Positions 25,445-39,455 of a stretch of 64,000 nt of DNA are shown in pieces (position 1 is the first letter of the stretch; the number at the start of each line of letters is the position of its first letter). This DNA comes from Polaribacter irgensii 23-P (GTDB lineage Bacteria > Bacteroidota > Bacteroidia > Flavobacteriales > Flavobacteriaceae): the NCBI RefSeq assembly GCF_000153225.1, contig NZ_CH724148.1, positions 1,444,842-1,508,841 on the forward strand, read 5' to 3'. The position numbers and the translations under genes were made by a program. The notes beneath the pieces are model-generated. The model did no database searches and was not told where the DNA came from. It saw only the letters and a program-made list of their open reading frames with translations.

Positions 25445-26749
25445 TTATTGTAAGGCTTCCTTATACGTAGACAGGCATCTTTCTCGTGCTTCTTTGTGAT
25501 CGACCATTTCTTTCGCATAAGTTAGCTCTTGAAAATTCGGTACCCATTTTTTTATATATGCCAAGTCTTTGTCGAACTTTTTAATCTGAGTTGTGGGGTT
25601 AAAAATTCTAAAATAAGGAGCGGCGTCTACTCCAGATCCTGCAACCCATTGCCAATTACCGACGTTACTAGCCATTTCATAATCATGTAGTTTTTTAGCA
25701 AAATAAGCTTCTCCCCATCTCCAATCGATCAGCAGATGCTTGCAGAGGAAACTGCCAACTAGCATTCGGATTCTATTGTGCATAAAGCCAGTTTCATTAA
25801 GTTGACGCATGCCAGCATCTACTAAAGGGTATCCGGTTTCTCCCTGACACCACTTGTTAAATTCAGCTTCATTGTTGCGCCATTCAATGCGGTCATATTT
25901 TGGTTTAAAAGAATTTTTTGAAGTGTATGGGAAATGCCAAAGAATTTGCATGAAGAATTCACGCCAGATTAGTTCCTGCCAGAAAATTTCATTTTTTTCT
26001 GAAATCGCCTTTTCCATCATTTTACGCACGCTTACAGTACCAAAACGCAAATGAGGGCCCAATCTAGAGGTGGAGTCTAAAGCTGGAAAATTTCTGGTTT
26101 CTTCATACGTTTGAATTAATTTGGGGGTTACCGTATGTTTTTTAATCTTTTGTTTTGCGACCTCAAAACCAATATCTGAAAGATGTAGGTTTGGTAGTTC
26201 TGTATTTTGTATCAAGTTTTCTAAGAAAGAGCTGGTGTAGTAAAAATCTAAATTATAGGTTTTAAACTGCTCTTTCCATACCTTCATGAAAGGTGTATAC
26301 ACTTTATACGGCAATCCATCTTTTTTCACAACCTCATTTTTTTCAAAGATTACTTGGTCTTTAAAGGTATCAAAATGGATGCCATTAGAGGATAAAAGTG
26401 CTTGTATTTTGTTATCTCTCTCCGTAGCATACGGTTCGTAATCTCTGTTTGTAAATACAGTATGGATACTGTATTCGGAGATTAATTTTTCAAAGATAGC
26501 ACTCGGGTTGCCATGAAGCATGGCAATACTACTGCCGTGTTTTTTTTCTAAAATAGCACGCATGTCCTGAAGTGTATCGTAGATAAAATTAAGACGCGCA
26601 TCTTCTTTTTGAAGTTTATCTAAAATATCTTCATCAAAAATAAAAATAGGAAGCACGGGATGCTCACTTTTTAGTGCATTGTAGAATCCAACATTATCAT
26701 CTAATCTTAAATCTCTTCGAAACCAAAAAATATTTACTGCGTCTTTCAT
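25445..26749 (-). CDS. Deoxyribodipyrimidine photolyase (class I CPD type)
   Basis: The enzyme splits UV-induced pyrimidine dimers using light absorbed by FAD and an antenna pigment. The 434-residue protein has the N-terminal antenna Rossmann domain starting NIFWFRRDLRLDDN. Its C-terminal helical FAD domain contains ELIWREFF (substrate and electron-transfer region), NRIRMLVGSFLCKHLLIDWRWGE and the FAD-binding MASNVGNWQWVAGSGVDAAPYFRIFNP region. All standard landmarks are present and the length is slightly short but normal. It is the last gene of the island and overlaps the SRPBCC gene by four bases. Confidence 0.93.
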   Translation of the reverse strand: MKDAVNIFWFRRDLRLDDNVGFYNALKSEHPVLPIFIFDEDILDKLQKEDARLNFIYDTLQDMRAILEKKHGSSIAMLHGNPSAIFEKLISEYSIHTVFTNRDYEPYATERDNKIQALLSSNGIHFDTFKDQVIFEKNEVVKKDGLPYKVYTPFMKVWKEQFKTYNLDFYYTSSFLENLIQNTELPNLHLSDIGFEVAKQKIKKHTVTPKLIQTYEETRNFPALDSTSRLGPHLRFGTVSVRKMMEKAISEKNEIFWQELIWREFFMQILWHFPYTSKNSFKPKYDRIEWRNNEAEFNKWCQGETGYPLVDAGMRQLNETGFMHNRIRMLVGSFLCKHLLIDWRWGEAYFAKKLHDYEMASNVGNWQWVAGSGVDAAPYFRIFNPTTQIKKFDKDLAYIKKWVPNFQELTYAKEMVDHKEARERCLSTYKEALQ

Positions 26750-27213
26750 TTTTTATAGCTTCCAAAGAGTTCTTCTAATTTTTGTTGTCTGTAATTGAAA
26801 ATTTCTTCCAATTTCGGTTTTACTATAAAGGGATGAACGATTTGACCTAAAATACCCAAGGGAACTTTATAATCAATAATATCTTCCATTTCTACACCAC
26901 CCTCGATTTCTTTGACAAAGTGTTTGTGGTGCCACAATGCATAGGGGCCATACATTTGCTCATCTACAAAGTATTTCTTTTCTTCAATATGGGTAATTTC
27001 AGAAACCCACTTTGTTTTAATTCCCAATAATGGAGTTACAATGTACTGTATAATTTGACCAGTGTACAATGGTCGGTCTATAGTAGATACAATATTAAAA
27101 CTCATATAGTCGGGGGTAATGACCTTTAAGTTTTTCGGATTTGATAGAAATTCCCAAGCAGTTTCTAGAGAAATTGGCAGTTGTTGCTTTTTATGCAGTG
27201 TGTAAATTTTCAT
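26746..27213 (-). CDS. SRPBCC (START-like) family protein
   Basis: I set the start at 27213 (MKIYTLHKKQQLPIS). The longer open frame to 27267 would run into tspO, whose stop is at 27216-27218. The 155-residue protein has the SRPBCC helix-grip pattern: an N-terminal strand then AWEFLSNPKNLKVITPDYM, a central strand block with YTGQIIQYIVTPLLGIKTKWVSEI, and VEMEDIIDYKVPLG before a long C-terminal helix. Such proteins bind hydrophobic ligands, and members are regularly found in bacterial photolyase clusters. The ligand is unknown. Confidence 0.85.
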   Translation of the reverse strand: MKIYTLHKKQQLPISLETAWEFLSNPKNLKVITPDYMSFNIVSTIDRPLYTGQIIQYIVTPLLGIKTKWVSEITHIEEKKYFVDEQMYGPYALWHHKHFVKEIEGGVEMEDIIDYKVPLGILGQIVHPFIVKPKLEEIFNYRQQKLEELFGSYKK

Positions 27214-27215
27214 TT

Positions 27216-27677
27216 TTAATTTTGGACTAAAATATAAAGGTTTAAAGAGCTTGCAATGCAAAGCCATAGGATGTAGGGGATGAGCAGTAATCTATAATTT
27301 TTCGTATTTTTCTGCCCTCTAAAATAATAAATAAAAAGGAGTGTGGTCAATAAAAGGAGAAGAATAAATGCGAAAAATACTTGGTGTTGATTAAAAAAGA
27401 CATAGTTCCAACTTACATTCAGTAGTAATTGAATAAAAAAGAGTCTTCTATTTTTTGTAGTGTTCGCAATAGTAAATAATTTTCCCAAGTAGATTGAGAA
27501 AAACACCATGATGAGCGTCCAAGCGATGCCAAAAACATAGCCTGGGGGAGTCCAAGGGGCTTGGTTGAGGGCAGTATACCAAAGAGATTTGGGACCACCA
27601 TTCATAAGCCAACTCCCAACTGCCAAACCACCAAAGTTGACCACTAAAAAAAGTAGGGTGGTTCGCAGTTGTTTCAT
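27216..27677 (-). CDS. tspO: TspO/MBR family membrane protein
   Basis: TspO proteins are five-helix membrane proteins that bind porphyrins and take part in light- and stress-linked responses. The 153-residue sequence shows the family pattern: a first helix, then the loop WYTALNQAPWTPPGYVFGIAWT, and four further hydrophobic helices (FSIYLGKLF, VSWNYVFFNQHQVFFAFILLLLL in part, LLIPYILWLCIASSLNLYI in part). The Trp/Pro loop is diagnostic. It sits between a very small protein gene and the SRPBCC gene in the photolyase island, in line with a role in photo-oxidative stress. Confidence 0.92.
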   Translation of the reverse strand: MKQLRTTLLFLVVNFGGLAVGSWLMNGGPKSLWYTALNQAPWTPPGYVFGIAWTLIMVFFSIYLGKLFTIANTTKNRRLFFIQLLLNVSWNYVFFNQHQVFFAFILLLLLTTLLFIYYFRGQKNTKNYRLLLIPYILWLCIASSLNLYILVQN

Positions 27678-27680
27678 TCT

Positions 27681-27854
27681 CTAAGAGTTTTCTGGTAAAG
27701 CTTCAATTTCTTTTAAAATATCGTCGGCCTCTTTGTATTTTGAATCGCTATCTGTTCTATTAATAGATTGCAGTTTATAAGCTTCCTCCATTGTTTTCTT
27801 ATATTTTTCTTGAAGTTTGTCTGCTGCTGATTTTTTTTTAAATATTCCGAACAT
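27681..27854 (-). CDS. Small Lacal_2735-like protein (57 residues)
   Basis: This short gene encodes MFGIFKKKSAADKLQEKYKK and continues through a helix to EALPENS. It resembles the small flavobacterial proteins known as the Lacal_2735 type: an MFG(I/L)FKKK start, then a KYKK helix and a terminal acidic helix. I recognise it from memory only. Function is unknown. It lies three bases upstream of tspO and just downstream of the glutathione peroxidase gene in the same direction. Confidence 0.7.
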   Translation of the reverse strand: MFGIFKKKSAADKLQEKYKKTMEEAYKLQSINRTDSDSKYKEADDILKEIEALPENS

Positions 27855-27859
27855 ATATT

Positions 27860-28333
27860 TTATATTAAATGTTTAGTAATTTTAGAACTCGATGGCTTTG
27901 TAATTGAAAAGTAATAATCAACCAGACCGCCTTCAGGAGAAACTAAATATTTTTGAAAATTCCATTTTACTGACGAACTTTTCGCATCGTTTAGACTTTT
28001 TTCTGTCAACCATGTGTACAGTGGATGTTGCTTGCTTCCTTTTACGTCTAACTTTTCTGTCATCAGAAAAGAAACTCCAAAATTCACTTTACAAAATGCC
28101 TCAATGTCTTCTGCAGATCCGGGTTCTTGGCTTCCAAACTGATTGCAAGGAGAACCAATAATCATTAAATTTTCTTTGTGCATCGTGTACAACTCCTCTA
28201 GCTCTTTGTACTGCGAAGTGAATCCGCATTTTGAAGCTACGTTGACAAAAAGCAGGTACTTATTTTTGTATTCCGATAAGTCAATAGCTTTATTTTGTAA
28301 ACTATTGATTTCTATTTTATAAATGTCTGTCAT
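27860..28333 (-). CDS. Glutathione peroxidase family protein
   Basis: The start is set at 28333 (MTDIYKIEINSL). The upstream extension to 28366 would overlap the SDR gene's stop. The 157-residue protein has the thioredoxin-like GPx fold with the peroxidatic Cys in VASKCGFT near 36, NQFGSQEPG near 70-78 and the active-site Trp/Asn in KWNFQKYLV. As in most bacteria, Cys replaces selenocysteine, and the enzyme probably uses thioredoxin to reduce lipid or organic peroxides. It belongs to the tight gene run with an SDR and tspO. Confidence 0.92.
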   Translation of the reverse strand: MTDIYKIEINSLQNKAIDLSEYKNKYLLFVNVASKCGFTSQYKELEELYTMHKENLMIIGSPCNQFGSQEPGSAEDIEAFCKVNFGVSFLMTEKLDVKGSKQHPLYTWLTEKSLNDAKSSSVKWNFQKYLVSPEGGLVDYYFSITKPSSSKITKHLI

Positions 28334-28338
28334 ATTTT

Positions 28339-29022
28339 TTAAATTTTGAAACTCACAATTCCACAATCAAGTTGGAATACTTGACCTGAAATAGCTGTTG
28401 CTTTGTCTGAGATTAGATAAGTTGCCATGTCTGCCACCTCTTGAGGTTTTAAGAATTTCTTTAAGGGGTGACGATCCGTGATATTTTCTATCATTTTTTC
28501 GTTTCTCAAAAGCTTTGCAGCGAGGTCGGTCTCAGTGACTGTAGGTGCGATTACATTTACACGAATTGATGGTGCCAATTCTGCACCTAATGATTTCCCC
28601 AAACCTTCAATTGCAGCTTTTGACGCTGCAATACTTGCGTGATATGGCATTCCTAGTTTTACAGCAACCGTACTAAAGAGTAATATAGATGGATTATTCC
28701 CGTTTTTTAATTTGGGAAGGTACTTTTGCACCGCTTTGACGGCTCCAATAACATTGATTTCAAAATCCTCTCTAAAATCATCTAATTTTAACCTTGAAAT
28801 TGGTTTTAAATTGATGCTTCCTGGACAATATATAAGTGTGTCTACAGCATCAATGTCTGGTAATTCGTCTGTGAGAATGTCGCAATTATAATGGGTTACA
28901 TTCGCATGTGGTAGCAAAGGAGCTGAGCGACTAATATTTACAACCAAATTTTCATTTTGCAAAGAATTTACAATTGCTTGTCCTATCCCTTTGCTTCCGC
29001 CTACTATTACTATTTTTTTCAT
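28339..29022 (-). CDS. Short-chain dehydrogenase/reductase
   Basis: The 227-residue protein is a classical SDR. It has the dinucleotide motif GGSKGIGQ near 8-15, an LIYCPGSI segment in place of NNAG, Ser near 119 (LFSTVA) and the catalytic YHASIAASK, where Tyr and Lys keep normal spacing. The C-terminus is ISGQVFQLDCG. The substrate is unknown; SDRs are regular companions of photolyase clusters. It follows the small paralogue gene by five bases. Confidence 0.88.
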   Translation of the reverse strand: MKKIVIVGGSKGIGQAIVNSLQNENLVVNISRSAPLLPHANVTHYNCDILTDELPDIDAVDTLIYCPGSINLKPISRLKLDDFREDFEINVIGAVKAVQKYLPKLKNGNNPSILLFSTVAVKLGMPYHASIAASKAAIEGLGKSLGAELAPSIRVNVIAPTVTETDLAAKLLRNEKMIENITDRHPLKKFLKPQEVADMATYLISDKATAISGQVFQLDCGIVSFKI

Positions 29023-29027
29023 ATGTT

Positions 29028-29243
29028 TTAAGGTCTACCTTTCAAACGCTTTTCAATTTTCTGTTTCACAGCTGTTAAGCGCTTCATTTGATCCATTATT
29101 TCAGGACTTTGTTCTGCTTTGTACACTTCGTTTAGCTCTAGTACCAGTGCTTTTACCTCTCTAGATGCTACAATTCGATCGCTGGTTGTTTTAAATGAGA
29201 ACTTACGGTGTTCAAATTCTTCAGCTCTTTCTAATAAATTCAT
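29028..29243 (-). CDS. Small helical protein, paralogue B of a tandem pair
   Basis: The 71-residue protein is clearly related to its upstream neighbour. Both share the frame L(L/I)E(R/K)A.EFE.RK..F.TTSDRI.A.RE.K.L.L..NEVYK and a C-terminal MDxMKRLT..KQ.IE(K/R)RLKG(R/K)P. It is rich in charged residues and predicted to be all-helical, with no signal peptide. I do not recognise a named family. Its place in the photolyase island, between folE remnants and an SDR, is the only clue to its role. Confidence 0.75.
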   Translation of the reverse strand: MNLLERAEEFEHRKFSFKTTSDRIVASREVKALVLELNEVYKAEQSPEIMDQMKRLTAVKQKIEKRLKGRP

Positions 29244-29320
29244 GATGCCTTTTCATTTTTTATAATCGGGTCAATATAATTATAAATCTTAGAAAAGCAA
29301 CATGAATGTGTATTAATTTA

Positions 29321-29545
29321 TTAGGAAGTTAAAGGTTTTCCTTTAAGACGTCTTTCGATTCTTTGTTTAATCAATGTCAATCTTTTCATAAGATCCATGA
29401 GCTTTACGTCTTTGCTTTTCTTGTAAACTTCATTTATGCTTAAAATGAGATCCTTCGCTTCTCTTGCCGCCATAATTCTATCGCTGGTGGTAGGGAATCT
29501 TTTTTTTCTGGTTTCAAACTCTAGTGCTTTTTCAATTAACTCCAT
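29321..29545 (-). CDS. Small helical protein, paralogue A of a tandem pair
   Basis: This 74-residue protein is the upstream member of the pair; more than half of the aligned positions match the downstream copy, including TTSDRI, NEVYK and MKRLT. It is Lys/Arg/Glu-rich and has a basic C-terminus (ERRLKGKPLTS). Nothing indicates an enzyme. The start codon lies two bases after the stop of the folE remnant, so it was once coupled to folE. The 77-base gap to the second copy may carry its own signals, but none was identified. Confidence 0.75.
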   Translation of the reverse strand: MELIEKALEFETRKKRFPTTSDRIMAAREAKDLILSINEVYKKSKDVKLMDLMKRLTLIKQRIERRLKGKPLTS

Positions 29546-29547
29546 AA

Positions 29548-30080
29548 TTAATAATTTAGGGTGTTTTGTAATTCGGCTATTTTCTCTTGACTATCAAACT
29601 TTCCACCAAAATAAGAGGTGACGGTTGTAGAGGTATCATCTTTAATTCCCCTTGAGAACACGCCCAAATGTTTTGCATCAATAACCACTGCAACATCTTC
29701 GGTGTTTTAAATTGCTTTAAGTTCTTCCGCAATTTGGTTCGTTAGCCGCTCTTGAACTTTGCGGTCTCTTTGCATAATATTGTATAATCCTATTTAACTT
29801 TGATAGACTAATTACTTTTACTGAAAAATTTCGTCGATATGTATTTGCAATTCTTTTAGGAATTCTCTTAATGCATCATCAGTTAAACTAAGTCCCATCA
29901 CATCTTTTATTTATTCAAAAAAATGTGTAATTTTTTCTCTTATCCCGTGTCCGGAGTTAAAAAGGCTATTGCCTACATTCGTGTTTTTAAACTCGTATTT
30001 AGATGTTTATCTCCACGGTCTTCGTGAATAAAACCTTTTGCTATTTCTCTATTTTCTTTTAAATCTCTTTCTTTGCTCAT
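29548..30080 (-). pseudogene. folE: Decayed folE (GTP cyclohydrolase I)
   Basis: Reading the minus strand from an ATG at 30078-30080, the FolE N-terminus is recognisable: GDKHLNTSLKT near the usual LxTPM site, then a stop, then REKITHFFE, IKDVMGLSLTDDALR and DEIF before another stop. About 60-80 middle residues, including the CEHH zinc segment, are absent. The C-terminal half returns as KLNRIIQYYAKRPQ, a frameshift, VQERLTNQIAEELKAI, a stop, and NTEDVAVVIDAKHLGVFSRG to the end. The zinc-binding Cys of the usual LCVxSRG is lost too. FolE makes dihydroneopterin triphosphate for pterins, and folE is a regular member of bacterial photolyase clusters. Confidence 0.88.
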
Positions 30081-30138
30081 AGTATCTTTTTAATGTGCTG
30101 TCTCTAAGTACGCTTGTCTTAAAAGCAAAGCACGGTTT

Positions 30139-30414
30139 TTATCTTTTTGATATAGTGTTGTTTGAGATAGACCGTTGTCGTGTACATTTGAATCTACCTT
30201 GGGCAAAAGTTCTTAATTTTTCATGCTTTGTTTTCCTTCCTTGCACTCTTTTTCTCCAATTTTTAAAACTTTTCAGCTTCATTTCTTTTCGCATTAGGTC
30301 AATTACCTCTTGCTCTTTTAATCCAAACTGAAACTCGATAGATTCGAAAGTTGTTCTGTCTTCCCAGGCCATTTCTATAATACGATCAATTGCGATACTA
30401 TCTAATTCTTCCAT
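30139..30414 (-). CDS. TIGR03643-family protein
   Basis: The 91-residue protein has the family core IDRIIEMAWEDRTTFESIEF followed by QFGLKEQEVIDLMR, a helix-turn-helix-like unit, and FKNWRKRVQGRKTKHEKLR. A basic tail ends in NNTISKR. The family is small, of unknown function, and known from photolyase/cryptochrome neighbourhoods. The start overlaps the stop of the upstream gene directly. The basic, HTH-like make-up would allow nucleic-acid binding, but that is inference. Confidence 0.85.
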   Translation of the reverse strand: MEELDSIAIDRIIEMAWEDRTTFESIEFQFGLKEQEVIDLMRKEMKLKSFKNWRKRVQGRKTKHEKLRTFAQGRFKCTRQRSISNNTISKR

Positions 30415-30837
30415 CTAGTAGTATTGGTATTTTTTGTCATTTTCTATCTTGAAATTGACTATTTTTTGGATAAAGCTTTTGTTTTCTTTCAAAAACTTAT
30501 TGTTTTTAAAACGCACAAAGTTTCCTTGTGCATGAATACTAAATCCTTCTGTTTTGTAAGTGTGTAATTGATAATAGGGGATAGCCCAGCTAAAATTTTT
30601 GAGTCCTTTATTGATGTGTACTAGGATCCCTTTTTCTCGCAGTTCAATATTACCATAATTGATATCGGATACTGCATTTATAAGATCTGCAAACCCTGGG
30701 CTTACGGCATCAATGACCATGCGCTTAGAACCGACTCCACCTAATTTGATGGCTTGGATAAAACTATAGGAAGTACCTAACATCTCGTTAATGCTGGCCG
30801 CCGCATCTTTGTTGTTAAGAGTTGTATTGAATATCAT
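30415..30837 (-). CDS. Conserved hypothetical protein, first gene behind operator B
   Basis: The 140-residue protein is not recognised. It has no signal peptide or membrane segment. The N-terminal half (NNKDAAASINEMLGTSYSF, SKRMVIDAVSPGFADLINAVSDINYGNIELREKGILVHINK) looks like an alpha/beta fold with a clear ELREKGILV strand pair. The C-terminal half is basic and aromatic (WAIPYYQLHTY, FVRFKNNKFLKENKSF). It is the first gene after a 30-base inverted repeat and a consensus -7 box, and is immediately followed by the TIGR03643 gene, so it belongs to the light-related regulon. Confidence 0.75.
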   Translation of the reverse strand: MIFNTTLNNKDAAASINEMLGTSYSFIQAIKLGGVGSKRMVIDAVSPGFADLINAVSDINYGNIELREKGILVHINKGLKNFSWAIPYYQLHTYKTEGFSIHAQGNFVRFKNNKFLKENKSFIQKIVNFKIENDKKYQYY

Positions 30838-30841
30838 GATT

Positions 30842-30849
30842 CAAATGTA
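30842..30849 (-). promoter_or_regulatory. -7 promoter element next to operator B
   Basis: On the minus strand this is TACATTTG, an exact TAnnTTTG match. It ends only four bases before the ATG at 30837, so the transcript would start at or beside the start codon. The TTAAACA half-site of operator B begins 21 bases upstream of it, where the -33 element should lie. Confidence 0.6.
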
Positions 30850-30863
30850 CAATAAATAATTAA

Positions 30864-30893
30864 TGTTTAACCATTTATTAAATAGCTTAAACA
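30864..30893. promoter_or_regulatory. Operator B: inverted repeat TGTTTAA-N16-TTAAACA
   Basis: TGTTTAA (30864-30870) and TTAAACA (30887-30893) are perfect 7-base inverted arms separated by 16 bases. The same arms with the same spacing occur at 39426-39455. The site lies 26 bases upstream of the 140-residue protein gene and overlaps its likely -33 region, the position of a repressor site. Confidence 0.7.
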
Positions 30894-30932
30894 AAAATTA
30901 ACAGAACATTATCGTTTAGATAGACCTAATAT

Positions 30933-32423
30933 TTACTCGGTTTTCAGCATCCGACTTCTATCAGATAGCATGTGTTTTTTCAAAATACGTTCGCTTTCTT
31001 TTTGGACGTCTGAATTTTTTTTCATCTCCCAAAGGGTGTCACTTGCCTTTTTCCGAGCAATTTTAATATCCACAATTGGATGGGGATAGTTGATACCAAG
31101 CTCAAAATTATTAAATTGCTGGTCTAAAGGAGTCATTAGGTAGGGTTCGTGTATGAAGGCAATAGATAAATTGGCCAACTCAGGTACCCATTTTTTTATG
31201 AAGGTACCGTCTTCATCGTGTTCAATACTATTTTTTATTGGATTGTAGATCCTTAACGTATTAATACCTGTTTCGCCGGCATTCATTTGTAATTGTGAAA
31301 AATGAATTCCAGGTTCAAAGTCTAAAAATAATTTCGACAGGTGCTGAGAAGAGGATTGCCAAGGTTGCCATAGAATATGTGTAAAGAAAGAAACTACCAT
31401 AGCACGCATTCTAAAGTTTAGATAGCCGGTTTCTTTTAAACAGCGCATCGAGGCGTCAATTAATGGAAAACCAGTGGTGCCAGTTTCCCAAGCTTTTTGA
31501 TATTCTAAAGAAATGCTTTTTTTTAATTTTTGATAGCCTTTATTAATACTCGCATTTTCCATGGTATGTTCCATTTCAAATTTCTGAATGAAATGTGCTT
31601 GCCAGCGCAACCTAGATATAAAAGCACCTAAATGTCGCTTATTTGCATCTGTTTTGCGTTTTGTCGCCTCTTGGAATATTTGACGTATCGATACATTTCC
31701 CCAGGCAAGATAAGGAGACAATCTGCTGCAGCTTTGTCTAGCCAATGCTGGTTTAGAGATATTAGACATGTATTTTTCATGTCGTGTTTGAAAAAAAGTA
31801 TCGGCATATTTCCAAGCCATTTTTGTGCCCCCCTGCTGAAAGTAGGAATGTTTAGGTGTTTCTAAAGCAACGGTGTTGAAATAGGCCTCTATTTGCTCTA
31901 TTTCTTCGATAGAAATAAATTTCTCAGCATTCAATGTGTTTTTGATTTGGGTATCATACATATAATCATCCCACTTGTCAAACCAATCTGCCCTATTTAA
32001 TAAGCCTCTTAAAACGCCATTATTATTGTTTTCTTTCCATGTCACAGAGTTATTTCTACAATATCTTGTAAATTCTTTGTCTCGGTTGTAGGTAATTAAT
32101 AAGCCTGTTTCTTGATGCGAAAATACGGTGTCCACTTTAAAAGAATCAAAAATTTGATTGAAAGCATTTACAACTTCTGTTTGCACACAAAGCACTTTGG
32201 TGTCGTATTTTTTTAGTTCGGCATTTAAAGCAACAACAGATTGTTTTATAAAATCCCAATGTCGCGTATCATAATGGGGATCCTCAATTAATGAGTTTTC
32301 AAAGACATAGAGAAAAAGCACACGTTTGTTTGATGCCAGTGCATTTTGAATTGCTTCATTATCTTGCAAACGCAAATCGCGTTTAAACCACACAACATGT
32401 ATTTCCTCTTTGTTAGTATGCAT
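30933..32423 (-). CDS. Divergent cryptochrome/photolyase-family flavoprotein
   Basis: The 496-residue protein has the N-terminal photolyase Rossmann domain (VVWFKRDLRLQDNEAI) and a C-terminal FAD-type helical domain (SPYLAWGNVSIRQIF, TGFPLIDASMRCLKETGYLNFRMRAMVVSF). It departs from true photolyases at functional places. Where class I enzymes have ELIWREF it has RLRWQAHF. In place of the SNxGNWQW loop it has LQMNAGETGINTLRIYNP. It therefore belongs to a separate cryptochrome-like branch often seen in photolyase clusters; repair activity cannot be assumed. It overlaps the end of the iron-sulfur photolyase gene by 11 bases. Confidence 0.88.
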   Translation of the reverse strand: MHTNKEEIHVVWFKRDLRLQDNEAIQNALASNKRVLFLYVFENSLIEDPHYDTRHWDFIKQSVVALNAELKKYDTKVLCVQTEVVNAFNQIFDSFKVDTVFSHQETGLLITYNRDKEFTRYCRNNSVTWKENNNNGVLRGLLNRADWFDKWDDYMYDTQIKNTLNAEKFISIEEIEQIEAYFNTVALETPKHSYFQQGGTKMAWKYADTFFQTRHEKYMSNISKPALARQSCSRLSPYLAWGNVSIRQIFQEATKRKTDANKRHLGAFISRLRWQAHFIQKFEMEHTMENASINKGYQKLKKSISLEYQKAWETGTTGFPLIDASMRCLKETGYLNFRMRAMVVSFFTHILWQPWQSSSQHLSKLFLDFEPGIHFSQLQMNAGETGINTLRIYNPIKNSIEHDEDGTFIKKWVPELANLSIAFIHEPYLMTPLDQQFNNFELGINYPHPIVDIKIARKKASDTLWEMKKNSDVQKESERILKKHMLSDRSRMLKTE

Positions 32424-33945
32424 CTAGATTTTCTATAATATGAGTTGCTTTTTCTGTGATTTTTATGCGGTCTTCATTAGACATTTTATTCAGAACACTG
32501 TACATCATTTTCATTCTAAAATTCCCTTTTAGTTTTTCTTGTTTTTCGTCTAAAAAATTCCAGTAAAGGGTGTTAAAAGGGCAGGCATCGTCCTCAAATT
32601 TCTTTGCTTTGTTATACACACAGGCATCACAATAATTGCTCATTTTTCCAATGTAACTTCCCGAAGACACATAGGGTTTTGTCGCTATTTTTCCTCCATC
32701 TGCAAACTGGCTCATGCCACGTGTATTTGGCAATTGTACCCATTCAATCGCGTCTACATAAATGCCCAAATACCAGGCATCAATCGCATCGGGATGGATC
32801 TGTGTGAGGAGTGCAAAATTACCTGTAATCATGAGGCGCTGAATATGGTGTGCATACCCGTTGTCTAAAGAATTATGAATCGCATTTTTTAGACAATTCA
32901 TTTTGGTTGCTCCCGTCCAAAAGAAGGCTGGTAATTTGTTTTTATTTTCTAAAAAGTTTTCTTTTTTATAGTTCGGCATCAGCATCCAATACATGCCTCT
33001 CATGTATTCTCTCCATCCTAAAATTTGTCGGATAAAACCTTCTACTTGAGAAATGTCTATCGCATCTTCTTGTTCTCTATACGTTTCTAGAACCGCATCT
33101 ACTACTTCTTTGGGAGCGATTATTTTAGAATTCATAGCAAAGGAGATTCTACTGTGAAATAAGTAGATTTTGTCCGTGTGCATTGCGTCCTGGTAATCTC
33201 CAAAGTGCACTAATAAATGGTCACAAAAATAAGCGAGCTGCTCCATTGCTTGTAGCCTGGAAATGGGATATTCAAAGAAGGAAGGGTTGATTTTTCCAAT
33301 TGTTTTAATGCCCGCTTTTTCAATCTCAGAGAACAGTGCTGTTACATCTGTGTCAAAAGTAATTTCTGGCGGAATTAATGCTTCGCCTTTCCATTTTTTT
33401 CGATTGCTTGCATCGTAATTCCACTTTCCTCCTTCGGGTTGTTTGTCTATCATTAAAATTTGATGCTTTTTGCGCATGTTGCGATAAAAGTGCTCCATCA
33501 AAAATTGCTTTTTACCTTTGAAAAAAGCAGTTAAATCTTCTCGTTCTGTGTAAAAATGTTCTGTGGAATAGACCGAAGCGTCAATTTTTAGAGCAGCGCA
33601 AAAAGAGCCTAGTTGTGCATCCAAGCGGTACTCATCAGGGGCTAAATATTCAAACTTTTCAATGGTATTTTCTGCAATTAAAAGGTCTAAATTTTCAGTT
33701 AAACTTTGGGTGTTTTTTGCGTCATTTATTTTGAAATAAACAACAGTATGTCCCGCGTCTTGCAATGCTTGTGAGAAGTTTCTCATGGCTGCAAAATAAC
33801 CTACTACTTTTTGTATATGGTGTGTTACATAGTCGGTTTCTTGTCGCATTTCAAATAGGCAATAGGTAACTTCTTCGTGTATTTCTGAAAACCAAGAATG
33901 TTGGCTATTGAGTTGATCTCCTAAAATTAAGCGTAGTGTTTTCAT
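32413..33945 (-). CDS. Iron-sulfur bacterial cryptochrome/photolyase (FeS-BCP, (6-4) photolyase type)
   Basis: The 510-residue protein has the photolyase-related (DPRP) N-terminal domain starting LRLILGDQLNSQHSWF. The C-terminal FAD domain has the four cysteines of a [4Fe-4S] cluster: one in TKMNCLKNAIH (about residue 357) and three in YCDACVYNKAKKFEDDACPF (about 440-460). In Agrobacterium PhrB this architecture repairs (6-4) photoproducts and carries a lumazine antenna. WVQLPNTRGMSQFADGG and GGKIATKPYVSSG are conserved for the family. It sits between CRY-DASH and the divergent cryptochrome with a one-base gap and an 11-base overlap. Confidence 0.93.
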   Translation of the reverse strand: MKTLRLILGDQLNSQHSWFSEIHEEVTYCLFEMRQETDYVTHHIQKVVGYFAAMRNFSQALQDAGHTVVYFKINDAKNTQSLTENLDLLIAENTIEKFEYLAPDEYRLDAQLGSFCAALKIDASVYSTEHFYTEREDLTAFFKGKKQFLMEHFYRNMRKKHQILMIDKQPEGGKWNYDASNRKKWKGEALIPPEITFDTDVTALFSEIEKAGIKTIGKINPSFFEYPISRLQAMEQLAYFCDHLLVHFGDYQDAMHTDKIYLFHSRISFAMNSKIIAPKEVVDAVLETYREQEDAIDISQVEGFIRQILGWREYMRGMYWMLMPNYKKENFLENKNKLPAFFWTGATKMNCLKNAIHNSLDNGYAHHIQRLMITGNFALLTQIHPDAIDAWYLGIYVDAIEWVQLPNTRGMSQFADGGKIATKPYVSSGSYIGKMSNYCDACVYNKAKKFEDDACPFNTLYWNFLDEKQEKLKGNFRMKMMYSVLNKMSNEDRIKITEKATHIIENLDAY

Positions 33946-33946
33946 T

Positions 33947-35257
33947 TTAAAACAGTGTTTTTTCTAACCAAAGTTTCCTGTATTTGTGATTTTGGTCGTA
34001 GCGATCAGCTTGCATTTTCGTATTGAACTTTCGATCTCTTGGGTCATTTCCTACGCCGGCTACATACATCCAATTTCCATAATTACTGTGTACGTCGTAA
34101 TCTAATAAAACGGATTCGAAATACGCTGCGCCAATGCGCCAGTCTAACAAAAGATCTTTTGCAAAATAAGAAGCTACATTTTGACGCCCGCGATTGCTCA
34201 TGAATCCCGTTTCTTTGAGTTCAATCATATTTGCATTTACAAAAGCATCTTTGGTCTCTCCATTAATCCACTGTTGTACCGTTTTTTGATCCGTGTTCCA
34301 TTCATATGTTTTTTCTAAGATACCACCTATTCTGAAAACTTTAGCATTGTATTTTAAAGAAATGTATTTAAAATAATCTCTCCAAATCAATTCAAAAATA
34401 ACCCAGTAGGTGGATTGGTTGGAACCAAATTCAGCTTCATATTCTTTAATCTTCCAATAAATTGTTTTAGCAGACAGGCTGCCGTTGGCTAACCAAGGGG
34501 AAAATTTTGTGCTATAGTCAGTTCCAACAAGACCATTTCTCGTATTTTTATAAAAGGAAACCTTTTTGGATTCAAAAAAATAGTATTGCAACCTTTCCAA
34601 GGCGGCAGTCTCTCCACCTTTAAAAGGGAAAGCTGTTTTTGCATGCGTTTTTGTGTCAGAAAAACCAAGACTTTCCATTGAAGGGATTGCTGTTTCTGTC
34701 TCAATTAGGTTTCGTTCAGAAAGTTTAGTAACCGTACACTCTTTTTCAACGGCTACTGTTTTTTCTACTTTTTTTCTAAAAATAGTGAATACGTCCGGGA
34801 TCTTAGAAAAATCTCTGGAAACCGCGTCAGGATGGTACAGAAATTGGTCATAATCTGCAACAAAACGCACGGTCTCTGGAAGCGTGCTCTTGATGAAATT
34901 ATCTGTCGCAATCTCTTCACGAGTCCATTCTTTTTGCGTGTAAATGGTACCAACTGAAAATTCATCACATAAGGTATGCATTTTGTTTTCAGGACTCTCC
35001 ATGTAGGTAAGCAAAGTGATGTTTAGTGCCGCTAAGTTCTTTTTTAAATCTGTAATCGTTTCAATAAGAAATTTTGTTCTAAATGATGCTGTCTTTTGAA
35101 ATCCAAAGGAGTCTATTTTAAATAGTTTTGGATCAAAAAAGTAAACAGCAATCACCTTAGAATGATTTTCTATCGCTTTTGTTAGAGATTGATTGTCTTG
35201 TACCCGTAAGTTATTACGGAACCAAATTACGCCTGTGTTTTCTTGTTTCTTCTGCAT
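33947..35257 (-). CDS. DASH-type cryptochrome
   Basis: CRY-DASH proteins bind FAD and a folate antenna and repair dimers in single-stranded DNA or act as light sensors. The 436-residue protein starts [16 protein letters not shown] and shows [70 protein letters not shown] and [21 protein letters not shown]. The terminal [22 protein letters not shown] matches the DASH C-terminal signature. All key regions are present. Its start codon lies inside the end of the DUF2256 gene. Confidence 0.93.
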
Positions 35258-35367
35258 TTTTCGCTACAATATTTTACATCTTCCCAGTTTTTTTCCCATT
35301 TTTTTCTCCATGTAAAAGGAAGGTTGCAGACCAAACAGGTCTTTTGTGGTAAATGTTGTTTCTTCAA
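35227..35367 (-). CDS. DUF2256 zinc-ribbon protein (46 residues, TTG start)
   Basis: The small frame encodes [20 protein letters not shown] then [14 protein letters not shown], the full DUF2256 pattern of two CxxC-type pairs around a WRKKW motif, probably one zinc ribbon. No ATG precedes it; TTG at 35367, two bases after the stop of the SDR/DUF2867 gene, is the best start (ATT just before is an alternative). It overlaps the CRY-DASH start by 31 bases, so the three genes are translationally linked. The family is a frequent companion of photolyases and its function is unknown. Confidence 0.82.
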
Positions 35368-35369
35368 AA

Positions 35370-36791
35370 TTATTTATTTAAGTTATTGATCATTCCATTA
35401 AAAACAAACCAGTGAAACGGCATGACAGCATACCAATACAATCGTCCCCCAAGACCGTGGGGTCTAAAAGTGGCTGTCTGATAAACCGTTCCTTTTTCTA
35501 TTTTAAATTCTAGCCAAGCCTCCCCGGGCAATATCATTTCGGCATAGAGCAGGAGCTTTCCATTTTCTTTATCTGCATAGATTACACGCCAAAAATCTAA
35601 AGCATCACCAGCAAATAATTCTGTGGGATGTCTTCTTCCTCTTCGCAAGCCTGCGCCGCCAAAAAATTGATCTACAATACCGCGAATTTTCCATAGAAAG
35701 GTCGCGTAATACCATCCGGTCTCACCGCCAATTGCCCAAATGTTATTGAGCAGTTTTTCAGTATTGTTTATTTTTCTTTTTTTAAAATCCTTAAAACAAC
35801 CGTGTTTTGGAACATTGATAAATTCGTGTACAAAACTTTTTAACTTTCCACTACTGATGTATGAATCTTTCCAACTAGAGATAATACTGTTTTGCTTTAT
35901 TTTAACAAAAGCAAATTCAACAGCCTCGCGATAGGTCATCGGATTTACATCTAAAATTTTATTGATATTACTCTTATTTCCAATGACTTCCACGCCCATA
36001 GAATTTACGAGAGAGGTAGCCAGCTTGTACGAGGTAGAGGTGACAAAATACAACCAATAAGAAGAGAGCTTTGGAGTCATCACGGGAACAATTAAAATCC
36101 ATCTTTTAAGTTTTCTAACTGCCGCGAACTCTAGTAGCATTTCTTTGTATGTTAATATTTCTGGTCCAAAGACATCATAGGAGGTATTGAATAATTCCTT
36201 TTTATTCAATGCACGGTGTAAAAAAGACAGAACATCTCTAATGCCCAAGGGTTGGGTTTTTGTGTTCAACCATTTGGGAGCGATCATGGCAGGTAGCTTT
36301 TCTACGATATCTCTAATGATTTCAAAAGAAGAACTGCCAGAACCAACGATGATACCTGCTTTAAAAGTAGTGAGTGCATAGACGTCAGAAGCCAACGCTT
36401 TCTCAACATTTTTGCGAGATAATAAATGTTTTGAAAGTTTGGTGTCATTGGTAATTCCACTTAAATAAATAACTTGTTTCAGGCTGGTTTTTTCAGCAAA
36501 ACGCTTAAAGTTAAAGGCACACTTCTCTTCTAAAATATGAAACTCTTTGGCCGAATTAGACATGGAGTGTATCAAGTAATACGCAAAATCAATGTCTTTT
36601 GGAATATTTTCTAAGCTTTCTGCATCTAAAAAGTCTGCAGCTACCAAGAGCACATTTTCTCGATCTCTGAAGTAATTTTGTGCTCTTTTCTTGTCTCTAA
36701 CAGCGCAAACAACAGTGTGGCCATCGTTTAGCAATAGAGGTATTAACCTTTTGCCGATATACCCTGTTGCTCCTGTTACAAGAATTTTCAT
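35370..36791 (-). CDS. SDR-family NAD(P)-binding protein with DUF2867 domain
   Basis: The 473-residue protein has an N-terminal extended-SDR Rossmann domain ([19 protein letters not shown] near 7-25, YYLIHSM near 73, IYLSGI near 109). The C-terminal DUF2867 region starts near 340, with [31 protein letters not shown] and [18 protein letters not shown] hydrophobic segment lies near the end of the protein. Substrate unknown. The gene is in the middle of the tight island operon, between the flavin reductase-like gene and DUF2256, suggesting a redox role related to light damage. Confidence 0.9.
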
Positions 36792-36797
36792 ACACGC

Positions 36798-37421
36798 TTA
36801 ATTATTTTTTTTTGGTCGCTGATAGGACAGCTGTGTTTTAAATTTTGGAATCGCATAGGTGTCCAAACCATTGATCGTAGCAATGTTTCCTTTAGAAAGA
36901 TTAATCAATCCGTCTTCCTGTAACAATTCGTCATCAATATACAACTCTTGAATTTGAGAGACAATCAGCACTACATCATTAGAAGGAACATACACTTCTT
37001 CTATAAATTTCATACTCATCTGTACAGGCGCACCTTTTACGAAAGGGGCTTTGTAAGCGCCTTTATATTCTGCCTCTAGATTTGTCATGTCAAATTCCGA
37101 CACTTCTTTTGGGTATTTAGCGGAGGTGTGGTGCGCATCCTCTATAATACCCTCGTGAATGTGGTTGATTGTAAAAAAGCCTAAATCTTTTATGTTTTTG
37201 TACGTATCTCTAGGCACAGTTGTGGGTCTTAAAATAAAACCCAAGGTTGGTGGTTTAGAGCCTAAATGTGTAACCGAACTAAAAATACCAACATTGGCAA
37301 TTCCTTCTTCTGAAAGAGAACCCAATAAGTTTGCAGACTTAAATCCCGAACAACTATTGATTAAATTAATTTTGTAAATTTTTTCTAAATTCTGAATGTC
37401 ATTAAAATTGAAAAAGGCCAT
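36798..37421 (-). CDS. Flavin reductase-like FMN-binding protein
   Basis: The 207-residue protein has the split-barrel fold of the flavin reductase/FMN-binding family: VGIFSSVTHLGSKPPTLGFILRPTTVPRDTYKNI near 44-78, which binds FMN phosphate, and DLGFFTINHIH. Such proteins reduce or hold FMN. In an operon with three flavoproteins it could supply reduced flavin, but that is inferred. Its ATG overlaps the stop of the ABC1 kinase gene by one base (TAATG), showing coupling. Confidence 0.85.
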   Translation of the reverse strand: MAFFNFNDIQNLEKIYKINLINSCSGFKSANLLGSLSEEGIANVGIFSSVTHLGSKPPTLGFILRPTTVPRDTYKNIKDLGFFTINHIHEGIIEDAHHTSAKYPKEVSEFDMTNLEAEYKGAYKAPFVKGAPVQMSMKFIEEVYVPSNDVVLIVSQIQELYIDDELLQEDGLINLSKGNIATINGLDTYAIPKFKTQLSYQRPKKNN

Positions 37422-38725
37422 TATAGATTTTTGTAATTATTTATTTTGATGTCTTTTCCTTGCAAGTCGTGCATTAAATTATACAGACCAAAGAAAGTTC
37501 TATTGATGTAAATAAAGTGCTTCGATCCTCTGTTTCCATTCATGCTCTTTAGCTCTGAACTCTTCATATACTTACTGCCCAACTCTGAGATTTTATCAAA
37601 AAAGCCATCATCAGAAAAATCAAATTCTTCTTGATGAAAGGGCTGTGTAAACAAACTTAGCATTTCGTAGAACAATGCTCTAAAAAATACCAGTTCACTT
37701 TCCGTATCATCTTCCCTTAAAATCTCTAATTCAAATAACTTTTCTTCAAAAAGCACTGGATCATTTATACATGCAGGTTTTGCCAATTCAAAGTAAGGGG
37801 TGTAAAATTCTAATGGAATTGTTTTCATACAGCCAAAATCAATTGCAATTAACTCATTATCAGGAGAAACTAAGAAGTTTCCAGGATGCGGATCTGCATG
37901 CACCTTTTTTAGGGTGTGAATTTGAAACATATAAAAGTCCCAAAGGGCTTGCGCTAATTTGTTTGAAATTTCTTGGTCGTCCGTTGAAAATTCGGACAAG
38001 TGCACACCTTCCATCCAGTCCATTGTAATAATTCTGTCAGAGGACAAATCGGCATAGTAGTTTGGAAAATTTAGGTTTGGAATGTGCTTACAAGCTTCAA
38101 CAATTGCGATACTTTGCGCTACTTCTAAAATGTAATCTGTCTCTTCTACTAATTTACCTTCTACCTCTTTAAAATAGCGATCAGAATCCTTTCCCCTAAT
38201 GTTAAACATTTTTACAGCAATGGGCTTTACCATCGATAAATCTGAAGTAATACTCGCTGCAATTCCAGGATATTGAATTTTTACAGCTAATTTTTTTCCA
38301 TCTTTTTCAGCTCTGTGGACCTGTCCAATACTTGCAGCATTTACAGAAACGGTATTGAATTTATCATAAATTTCACTTGGATCTTTTCCAAAGTAATTTT
38401 TAAATGTTTTTACTACTAAAGCAGGAGATAATGGAGGAACAGAAAACTGAGAAAGTGAAAACTTTTCAACATAGGCTCTCGGCAAAACACTTTTTTCCAT
38501 GCTCAACATTTGCGCTACTTTAAGAGCACTCCCTTTTAGTTGCTGCAATCCATTGTAGATGTCTTCTGCATTATTTTGGTTCAGCTTTTCTTTCGCTTCA
38601 ATTTCTGATTTGGTAAGCTTACTACCGTAATATTTTAAATAATTCACACCAATTTTCGCTCCAGTGGTTACTAATTTTGAAGCCCGTTGTATTTTAGAGG
38701 TGGGGATGGAATCGATTGTTTTCAT
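37421..38725 (-). CDS. ABC1/AarF/UbiB-family atypical kinase
   Basis: The 434-residue protein has the family landmarks: the N-terminal KGSALKVAQMLSME (the KxGQ-type region near 63-76), SIGQVHRAEKDGKKLAVKIQYP with the A-rich/G loop and invariant Lys near 147, HADPHPGNFLV near 276-286, and AIDFGCMKTIP with the DFG aspartate. Family members act in quinone synthesis or lipid homeostasis through ATPase activity. In this place, directly behind the TetR gene and ahead of flavoproteins, it is part of the putative light regulon. It begins eight bases after the regulator gene. Confidence 0.92.
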   Translation of the reverse strand: MKTIDSIPTSKIQRASKLVTTGAKIGVNYLKYYGSKLTKSEIEAKEKLNQNNAEDIYNGLQQLKGSALKVAQMLSMEKSVLPRAYVEKFSLSQFSVPPLSPALVVKTFKNYFGKDPSEIYDKFNTVSVNAASIGQVHRAEKDGKKLAVKIQYPGIAASITSDLSMVKPIAVKMFNIRGKDSDRYFKEVEGKLVEETDYILEVAQSIAIVEACKHIPNLNFPNYYADLSSDRIITMDWMEGVHLSEFSTDDQEISNKLAQALWDFYMFQIHTLKKVHADPHPGNFLVSPDNELIAIDFGCMKTIPLEFYTPYFELAKPACINDPVLFEEKLFELEILREDDTESELVFFRALFYEMLSLFTQPFHQEEFDFSDDGFFDKISELGSKYMKSSELKSMNGNRGSKHFIYINRTFFGLYNLMHDLQGKDIKINNYKNL

Positions 38726-38733
38726 ATATTTCT

Positions 38734-39396
38734 TTAATTGAAATTTACTTTTTCTTTTAAAATGAATTTTCCAAAATCAAGAAGGCTCTTGAGTGGTTTG
38801 ATATCTAGTAAATCAAAACGTGAATTAACCGATTTTTCGATAAAAATATCTGTTTTTTCAAAAGATGCTGAGGTATCATCTAACCAAAACTTTAAGGTAA
38901 GCACCATTTGAATCCATGACGATTCTTGGGTTGTTCTCTCTTGAATTTTTACAAGTTGCTCCTGCTGTAGGTCTATTTTTTCAATACCAATGTTGTTTGC
39001 AAAAGTTTTGAAATCTTTCTTTAAATCCTTTAAAAGATTTAAAGACGTTAATTTTAGTACGTTTTCATTTCCATGCAATGCATACACCACATAACTTCTA
39101 TTTGCGGTTAGCAATTCAAAAAATGTAAAATAGAAACTTAATAACTTGTTCCGTGCGTCATAATTTGGGTACTCTTCACTTTTCGCCAATAACTTTAACG
39201 TATTGTTAAAAAATTCTCCAAAAATGGACTGCTCAAGTGCTTCAAAAGAACCAAAGAATTTATAGAATTCTGCTTCTTCAAAATTATTTTCTTTTGCGAA
39301 GCTAAAAACAGATTTAGGATGGTGATTGTGCTCTAGTACAAACTCCATGTACCAAGAAATTAAGTGTTCTTTGCTAATGTTTTTCTTGCGTGCCAT
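38734..39396 (-). CDS. TetR-family transcriptional regulator at the head of the photolyase island
   Basis: The 220-residue protein has an N-terminal TetR-type HTH (HLISWYMEFVLEHNHHPKSVFSFAKENNFEEAEFYKFFGSFEALEQSIF; helix-turn-helix near 27-50, ending in the conserved FYKFFGSFE turn). An all-helical ligand domain follows, ending LLDFGKFILKEKVNFN. It heads a run of eight tightly packed genes through 30933 and lies 29 bases downstream of operator A, so autoregulation of the operon is likely. The inducing ligand is not evident. It is not a B12-binding MerR protein such as LitR/CarH, which usually control such clusters. Confidence 0.85.
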   Translation of the reverse strand: MARKKNISKEHLISWYMEFVLEHNHHPKSVFSFAKENNFEEAEFYKFFGSFEALEQSIFGEFFNNTLKLLAKSEEYPNYDARNKLLSFYFTFFELLTANRSYVVYALHGNENVLKLTSLNLLKDLKKDFKTFANNIGIEKIDLQQEQLVKIQERTTQESSWIQMVLTLKFWLDDTSASFEKTDIFIEKSVNSRFDLLDIKPLKSLLDFGKFILKEKVNFN

Positions 39397-39425
39397 AATT
39401 GATAAATTTTAGGTAAAGATACGAA

Positions 39426-39455
39426 TGTTTAATAAAATTACACTTTGGTTAAACA
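39426..39455. promoter_or_regulatory. Operator A: inverted repeat TGTTTAA-N16-TTAAACA
   Basis: TGTTTAA (39426-39432) and TTAAACA (39449-39455) form perfect 7-base arms with a 16-base spacer, the same layout as operator B at 30864-30893. The site is 29 bases upstream of the TetR gene; a TATCTTTA box (39415-39422 read on the minus strand) follows it and could be the -7 element. Confidence 0.7.

Follow-up and report, generated by a model that had tools for sequence, protein, structure and literature searches.

A stretch of 64,000 nucleotides from Polaribacter irgensii 23-P (contig NZ_CH724148.1, positions 1,444,842 to 1,508,841; hereafter the window) contains an island of photolyase genes in which the 30 bp palindrome TGTTTAA-N16-TTAAACA stands in front of two predicted operons. 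On the basis of sequence comparisons and a structural model, we consider it likely that this palindrome is the operator of a MerR-type regulator of the LitR/CarH family, a vitamin B12-type protein that would hold photoprotection promoters repressed in darkness and release them in light. The gene for this regulator lies outside the window, beside carotenoid genes, and it is probably this gene, and not the TetR-type gene of the island, that encodes the binding protein. With somewhat less assurance, we lean towards a broader interpretation: a light regulon common to the family Flavobacteriaceae, governed by a separate branch of B12-type MerR proteins with its own 30 bp inverted-repeat code and an operator at the start codon of its own gene, in which one protein and one signal would shut that gene, carotenoid synthesis and DNA photorepair.

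A pattern search of the window located operator A at 30864–30893, in front of the operon that begins with orf140, and operator B at 39426–39455, in front of the operon that begins with the TetR-type gene; neither is assigned to a strand. Sequence, perfect arms, equal spacing and coordinates were exactly those reported in the initial annotation, as were the distances of 26 and 29 bases to the first genes (ATG of orf140 at 30837, ATG of the TetR-type gene at 39396). Promoters of Bacteroidota have a −33/−7 consensus with defined spacing, in which the −7 element reads TAnnTTTG. By this consensus, the predicted −7 element of operon B is TATCTTTA (39414–39421, minus strand), 4 bases past the operator, and that of operon A is TACATTTG (30842–30849, minus strand), at an offset of 44 from the operator start. 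Because the −7 element of operon B was placed at 39414–39421, its expected −33 position lies within the 16-base spacer, and not on a half-site as had been proposed.

Exact copies of the palindrome are non-random and are kept in relatives. In the P. irgensii genome (2.76 Mb), four exact palindromes were found versus none of the reversed pattern; two are in the island, one precedes crtI, and one is ∼0.6 kb ahead of a second photolyase cluster. Permissive searches gave 9 palindromes versus 7 reversed-pattern controls with up to one mismatch and 105 versus 96 with up to two, and in the window 13 matches with up to three mismatches compared with 17.3 in shuffled sequence. As counts of this kind within one genome were near control or shuffled values, the analysis was confined to exact matches and to near matches at defined positions. 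The genome-wide search proposed at the outset, together with the warning that random occurrence and lack of conservation would speak against a regulon signal, thus bears out the exact form (4 vs. 0), while the one-mismatch form in a single genome is near chance.

Enrichment was also seen beyond this genome and was specific to the 16-base spacer. A near set of 39 genomes, P. irgensii included, consisted of 24 genomes of the same genus, with 62 exact sites versus 2 reversed-pattern controls, and 15 genomes of other families, with 7 versus 2. For 18 other spacer lengths between 8 and 26, exact arms occurred twice altogether in P. irgensii and 74 times in the 24 same-genus genomes, or 4.1 per length. 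Across the family, 199 genomes contained 578 exact copies versus 25 of the reversed pattern, with at least one copy in 157 genomes (copy counts were transcribed by hand; the total of 157 matches an automatic tally). With photoprotection genes downstream, as described below, these counts agree with the proposal that the palindrome is a new regulon signal. Six loci (by eye, L190, L202, L204, L208, L209 and L228) have exact arms separated by 17 bases 3′ of the MerR gene, pointing to a degree of flexibility in the spacer length.

The copy at C1:2586165–2586194 of P. irgensii sits in the gap between the MerR-type gene (G000:C1:2586219–2587133) and crtI, and for this reason the MerR protein was searched for across the same genome sets. 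The gene directly precedes genes that read as crtI (named by eye; Pfam gives the amino oxidase family) and crtB (squalene/phytoene synthase). Among family genomes in which the MerR match was a close orthologue (E 1e-57 or better), 146 of 149 had an exact site, compared with 6 of 38 genomes that had either no match (32) or a match weaker than 1e-6 (6); Fisher's test gave 1.4e-26 with genomes treated as independent, which they are not. No site was found in any of the 21 genomes that are at least 85% complete and have no MerR match. An unlinked light-type regulator had been suggested from the island alone, and the MerR gene is the best candidate for it.

MerR loci were then examined at defined positions. 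The 80 named loci used are the best of 587 from a single contig scan, which ran two peptide patterns, one holding EHF; among them are Polaribacter, Tenacibaculum, Flavobacterium, Maribacter, Aquimarina and other genera. A site with up to two mismatches lay no more than 260 bp 3′ of the gene in 35 of the 80 loci (16 exact), versus 4 of 80 for the reversed control. A 195-base stretch around the MerR start contained such a site in 64 of 80 loci (control, 4 of 80; none of the 80 exact), and in 55 of these 64, counted by eye, the 3′ arm reads xTGAAC(A/G) and contains the likely start codon. In the loci of the same genus that were inspected, a −7-like TATCTTTG or similar element mostly extends into the 5′ arm. 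The corresponding site in P. irgensii, at C1:2587103–2587132, has two mismatches. Sites that flank the MerR gene on both sides are the pattern expected of that regulator's own operators.

The protein itself resembles CarH. Pfam recognised an N-terminal winged-helix domain (PF13411, MerR_1; E 3.7e-16) and a four-helix bundle B12 subdomain (PF02607, B12-binding_2; E 7.4e-9). The C-terminal part, without a match to PF02310, is a predicted alpha/beta region covered by a whole-length Foldseek match to CarH; PF02310 was recognised by Pfam in a B12-dependent methylmalonyl-CoA mutase encoded in the window. The best sequence matches in the PDB were 3whp, a "probable transcriptional regulator" (E 4.7e-12), and Thermus thermophilus CarH 5c8d (E 6.6e-12), which align to the MerR protein with identical letters, and 2jml, the DNA-binding domain of CarA (PMC8156234; this and the other papers cited here are drawn on in excerpt), also matched. 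With the predicted model (mean predicted local distance difference test score, 82; predicted template-modelling (TM) score, 0.76), the first 12 Foldseek rows were all T. thermophilus CarH, and isolated cobalamin-binding domains superposed with a target TM score of up to 0.78.

Several motifs of the LitR/CarH family are mostly kept. W151, E161 and H162 of the Wx9EH motif are invariant in 17 compared MerR proteins, and the motif is present in 78 of the 80 named relatives, a count that is partly built in because one search pattern held EHF. The cobalt-ligand motif [E/D]xHxx[G/A], which reads EIHELG in P. irgensii, is found in all 80. The signature of adenosylcobalamin light receptors comprises GxxW, EH, GxxH and GxxxP (PMC11796333), and the P. 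irgensii protein has the first, second and fourth of these. A gene for cobalamin adenosyltransferase, the enzyme that makes adenosylcobalamin, is also present in the genome.

Most sites meet a core promoter. Of 46 aligned sites, 39 contain TAnnTTTG, compared with a mean of 5.1 after shuffling; the 46 are those of nine target classes out of 54 aligned sites, and in 35 of the 46 the element begins within the operator or no more than 9 bases past it. The seven sites that lack it are TetR sites in which the element ends in A and not G; when either ending is allowed, the element lies in the same range in 44 of 46. Two of the eight aligned sites outside the nine classes also have TAnnTTTG in this range. 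At many crtI sites the −7 element has an offset of 15, inside the operator. Such overlap or close contact with the core promoter at most sites favours repression as the mode of action.

The genes downstream fit a photoprotection regulon. In the genus and nearby families, targets are crtI, TetR-ABC1, orf140-DUF2805, photolyase, flavin reductase, TspO, fasciclin, CHRD and GLPGLI-type genes. In 16 genomes of other genera, 49 of 61 sites have homologues of the target set within 1.3 kb downstream, versus none of 21 two-mismatch places in the P. irgensii genome used as a control. The nearer set gave 50 linked entries out of 64, equivalent to 48 of 62 distinct sites (two G026 sites were counted twice and seven crtI sites were left out); this figure is partly circular because the references for fasciclin, GLPGLI, CHRD, folE and exonuclease were chosen once those genes had been noticed there, and the figure for other genera is free of that circularity. 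In the comparison of orthologues proposed in the initial annotation, the site is conserved upstream of both first genes of the island, with at most one mismatch in 10 of 10 close TetR orthologues and in 14 of 18 orf140 orthologues.

Some sites stand in less usual settings. The fourth exact copy in P. irgensii (C1:2140115) resembles site B in being followed by TTTTGTATCTTTA. In C1:2139500–2140115 (about 7500–8116 of L032), the operator is accompanied by an apparent decayed small gene with an MFGLFKKK start, and the second photolyase cluster begins ∼0.6 kb on; decay of the small gene may have left this cluster far from its promoter. Loci L038, L042, L097 and L110 have exact operators with a 264- to 269-residue gene ending on one side and no obvious target. 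A small or lost target is possible at these loci, as a fasciclin gene is present at L044, where the setting is similar.

A mechanism can be proposed by analogy with CarH. The MerR protein would bind the palindrome through its two arms, as TTAAACA contains the TnnACA of CarH half-sites, and the adenosylcobalamin-bound form would be the one that binds. Bound protein would block RNA polymerase, with most sites covering or abutting the −7/−33 region. Light would then split the cofactor, with loss of the adenosyl group as carried over from CarH, and free the promoter. In P. irgensii, the sites in the window would switch on the whole island (25445–39396) as two operons, along with the MerR gene itself, carotenoid synthesis and the second photolyase cluster.

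Several observations weigh against a CarH-like light repressor acting at these sites. An exact site is missing from three genomes despite a close MerR orthologue, and a middle group with MerR matches between 1e-45 and 1e-53 has sites in only 5 of 12 genomes. Conversely, six genomes with no MerR match or a weak one have a site: four are matchless and less than 85% complete, and two (G186 and G223) have a weak match. The G036 site lies 627 bases away from the MerR gene and precedes an extracytoplasmic function (ECF) sigma gene, and the MerR protein of this genome, at least one of the 17 compared, lacks the cobalt-ligand histidine. With the N16 spacer, no near-match was seen 3′ of the MerR gene in 45 of the 80 named loci; many of these site-less loci have a crtI start close behind the MerR stop, and a separate promoter may be missing there. 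No recognised target was found for 12 of 61 distinct sites in other genera and 14 of 62 in the nearer set. The whole-length Foldseek superposition on CarH is loose (TM ∼0.5 to 0.6; root-mean-square deviation 9 to 14), perhaps from domain movement. The operator is a 30 bp inverted repeat with a 16 bp spacer, whereas CarH operators are tandem 11 bp direct repeats, nnnnTnnACAn (PMC9304148). Extra CarH-type half-sites picked out by eye were rejected as single examples, since direct half-sites at 11 bp offsets were not enriched around 84 distinct sites. The built-in part of the EH count and the failure of Pfam to recognise PF02310, the second (Rossmann) B12 subdomain, also belong here. Finally, GxxH reads NxxH in the P. 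irgensii protein and in 73 of the 77 relatives matched at this position; the full four-motif signature is absent from the P. irgensii protein and present in 2 of 80 relatives. The NxxH reading is a real difference and lowers the certainty that light acts as it does in CarH.

The NxxH reading and the unrecognised PF02310 also speak for the strongest alternative, that the MerR protein binds the palindrome but answers a signal other than light acting through B12. Class II LitR, which relays a LOV signal, has kept one B12 subdomain and still controls photolyase genes (PMC9758184). We regard this as unlikely, though worth keeping in view: Wx9EH, the cobalt-ligand histidine and GxxxP are mostly kept, and the fold search ranks complete CarH, with both B12 subdomains, first. 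Less probable again is that the protein activates its promoters by remodelling a badly spaced promoter, a mode of action common among MerR proteins. MerR proteins can repress or activate from sites in or overlapping a promoter (PMC8156234), and the −7 element inside the operator at many crtI sites would suit such an arrangement. At the inspected merR loci of the same genus, however, the operator meets both the −7 element and the likely start codon, and −7 elements occur at several offsets, which fits blocking better than activation from one geometry.

A third alternative, in line with one of the two controllers suggested in the initial annotation, is that the island's TetR protein recognises the palindrome, repressing both the operon that it heads and the neighbouring one. 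Inverted repeats close to their own gene are common binding sites of TetR regulators. The TetR-type gene is indeed the first after site B, with TetR_C_23 recognised, and the site is present at 10 of 10 TetR orthologues with 59% identity or more (8 exact, 2 with one mismatch). A TetR controller with sites confined to TetR-bearing genomes was nevertheless rejected, because sites are present in five genomes in which the TetR search was empty (G007, 71% complete, G011, G020, G025 and G036). The only genome with a TetR match and no MerR, G027, has a distant match (37% identity) and no site. None of 16 more distant TetR relatives has a site at up to one mismatch (one has a site at two), near-matches stand at merR, on both sides of the gene, and at crtI in many genera, and Pfam recognised TetR_C_23 only, leaving the N-terminus unrecognised. 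Control by the TetR protein thus appears very unlikely, and the protein is best read as a regulon member, a target and not the controller. Upstream of four of the distant relatives (L145, L146, L148 and L154), a recurring TGGTTTTTTG...TTTTAACCA (TTCTAACA in L145) was observed, followed by a −7-like element; it is perhaps the operator of another regulator. That the palindromes are chance AT-rich matches, as the permissive counts in the genome and window would allow, is refuted almost beyond doubt by the exact counts across the family, the spacing specificity and the positional conservation at MerR, TetR and orf140 genes.

The island (25445–39396) would comprise two operons that together span it, all genes being on the minus strand. 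Operon B, with tightly spaced genes, begins with the TetR-type gene (TetR_C_23; 38734–39396), followed by genes for an ABC1 atypical kinase (37421–38725), a flavin reductase-like protein (36798–37421), an NAD-binding/DUF2867 protein (35370–36791), a small DUF2256 protein (35245–35364, ends of the match approximate), a photolyase/cryptochrome that is DASH-like by eye (33947–35257), a deoxyribodipyrimidine photolyase-related protein (DPRP; 32413–33945) and, as the predicted final gene, a further photolyase/cryptochrome (30933–32423). Operon A begins with orf140 (30415–30837), whose 140-residue product has no Pfam family, and a DUF2805 gene (PF10985; 30139–30414). About 1.1 kb containing a folE (GTP cyclohydrolase I) remnant with in-frame stops (29551–29955) separates DUF2805 from a short-chain dehydrogenase (28339–29022); folE is open at this position in several relatives. 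Next are glutathione peroxidase (27860–28330), a TspO/MBR family protein (27216–27677), a 173-residue open reading frame that is SRPBCC-like by eye only and without a Pfam match (26746–27267) and a photolyase/cryptochrome, the final gene of the predicted operon (25445–26749). Besides the broken copy, two open full-length folE-type genes were observed elsewhere in the P. irgensii genome. Weak orf140 relatives were seen near a MerR match in two genomes, ∼5.5 kb away in G037:C43 and ∼100 bases away in G030:C18, hinting that orf140 is an old partner of MerR.

Flavobacteria are abundant in sunlit surface water. One exact palindrome and one candidate regulator make the question of their light response testable in a few experiments, and predict light-responsive genes in roughly 150 sampled genera that carry the palindrome. 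They also raise the question of how a CarH-like protein would read inverted and not direct repeats, which bears on CarH-based optogenetic tools.

No such operator, and no CarH/LitR regulon in Bacteroidota, was found in titles and starts of abstracts among the matches listed in PubMed Central, with subscription literature outside this search. Light-induced carotenoids are described in Chryseobacterium, by a mechanism given as unknown in the excerpt (PMC7064467). In Flavobacteriaceae strain GF1, a MerR gene with a B12-binding domain, the same domain type as here, lies upstream of zeaxanthin genes; its authors suggest a photooxidative response, and the passage available names no operator or regulon (PMC6974559). 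Flavobacteriaceae bacterium GF1 in our set (L217, presumably that strain) has no site at up to two mismatches 3′ of MerR and one at the 5′ end. Bizionia MliR was dropped as a possible orthologue on terms and not on sequence, as the excerpt of PMC9478572 makes no mention of cobalamin, CarH, phytoene or operator.

Among characterised systems, class I CarH/LitR of T. thermophilus, Bacillus megaterium and Myxococcales is closest. As here, these proteins combine a MerR domain with a four-helix B12 domain, have Wx9EH and ExHxxG motifs, are encoded beside carotenoid genes, and use an operator that overlaps the promoter and has a half-site containing TnnACA (PMC8156234, PMC9304148). Unlike CarH, the protein has NxxH in place of GxxH, and its predicted sites extend to photolyase, TetR-ABC1, fasciclin and GLPGLI genes. 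Class II LitR of Pseudomonas (PplR1 and PmlR2) controls photolyase, cryptochrome, folE and other genes, and its consensus, T(G/A)TACA-N12-TGTA(C/T)A, shares two half-sites and the outer T(G/A)T...A with the palindrome; it differs in half-site and spacer (24 bp overall versus 30 bp), in having a LOV partner and in its single B12 subdomain (PMC9758184). The CarA operator of Myxococcus xanthus likewise includes inverted repeats, one overlapping the −35 region, but spans ∼55 bp with two inverted repeats and is bound independently of B12 (PMC9304148). We place the protein in the LitR/CarH kind, and what is new here is the form of the operator, a wide inverted repeat, and the wider regulon.

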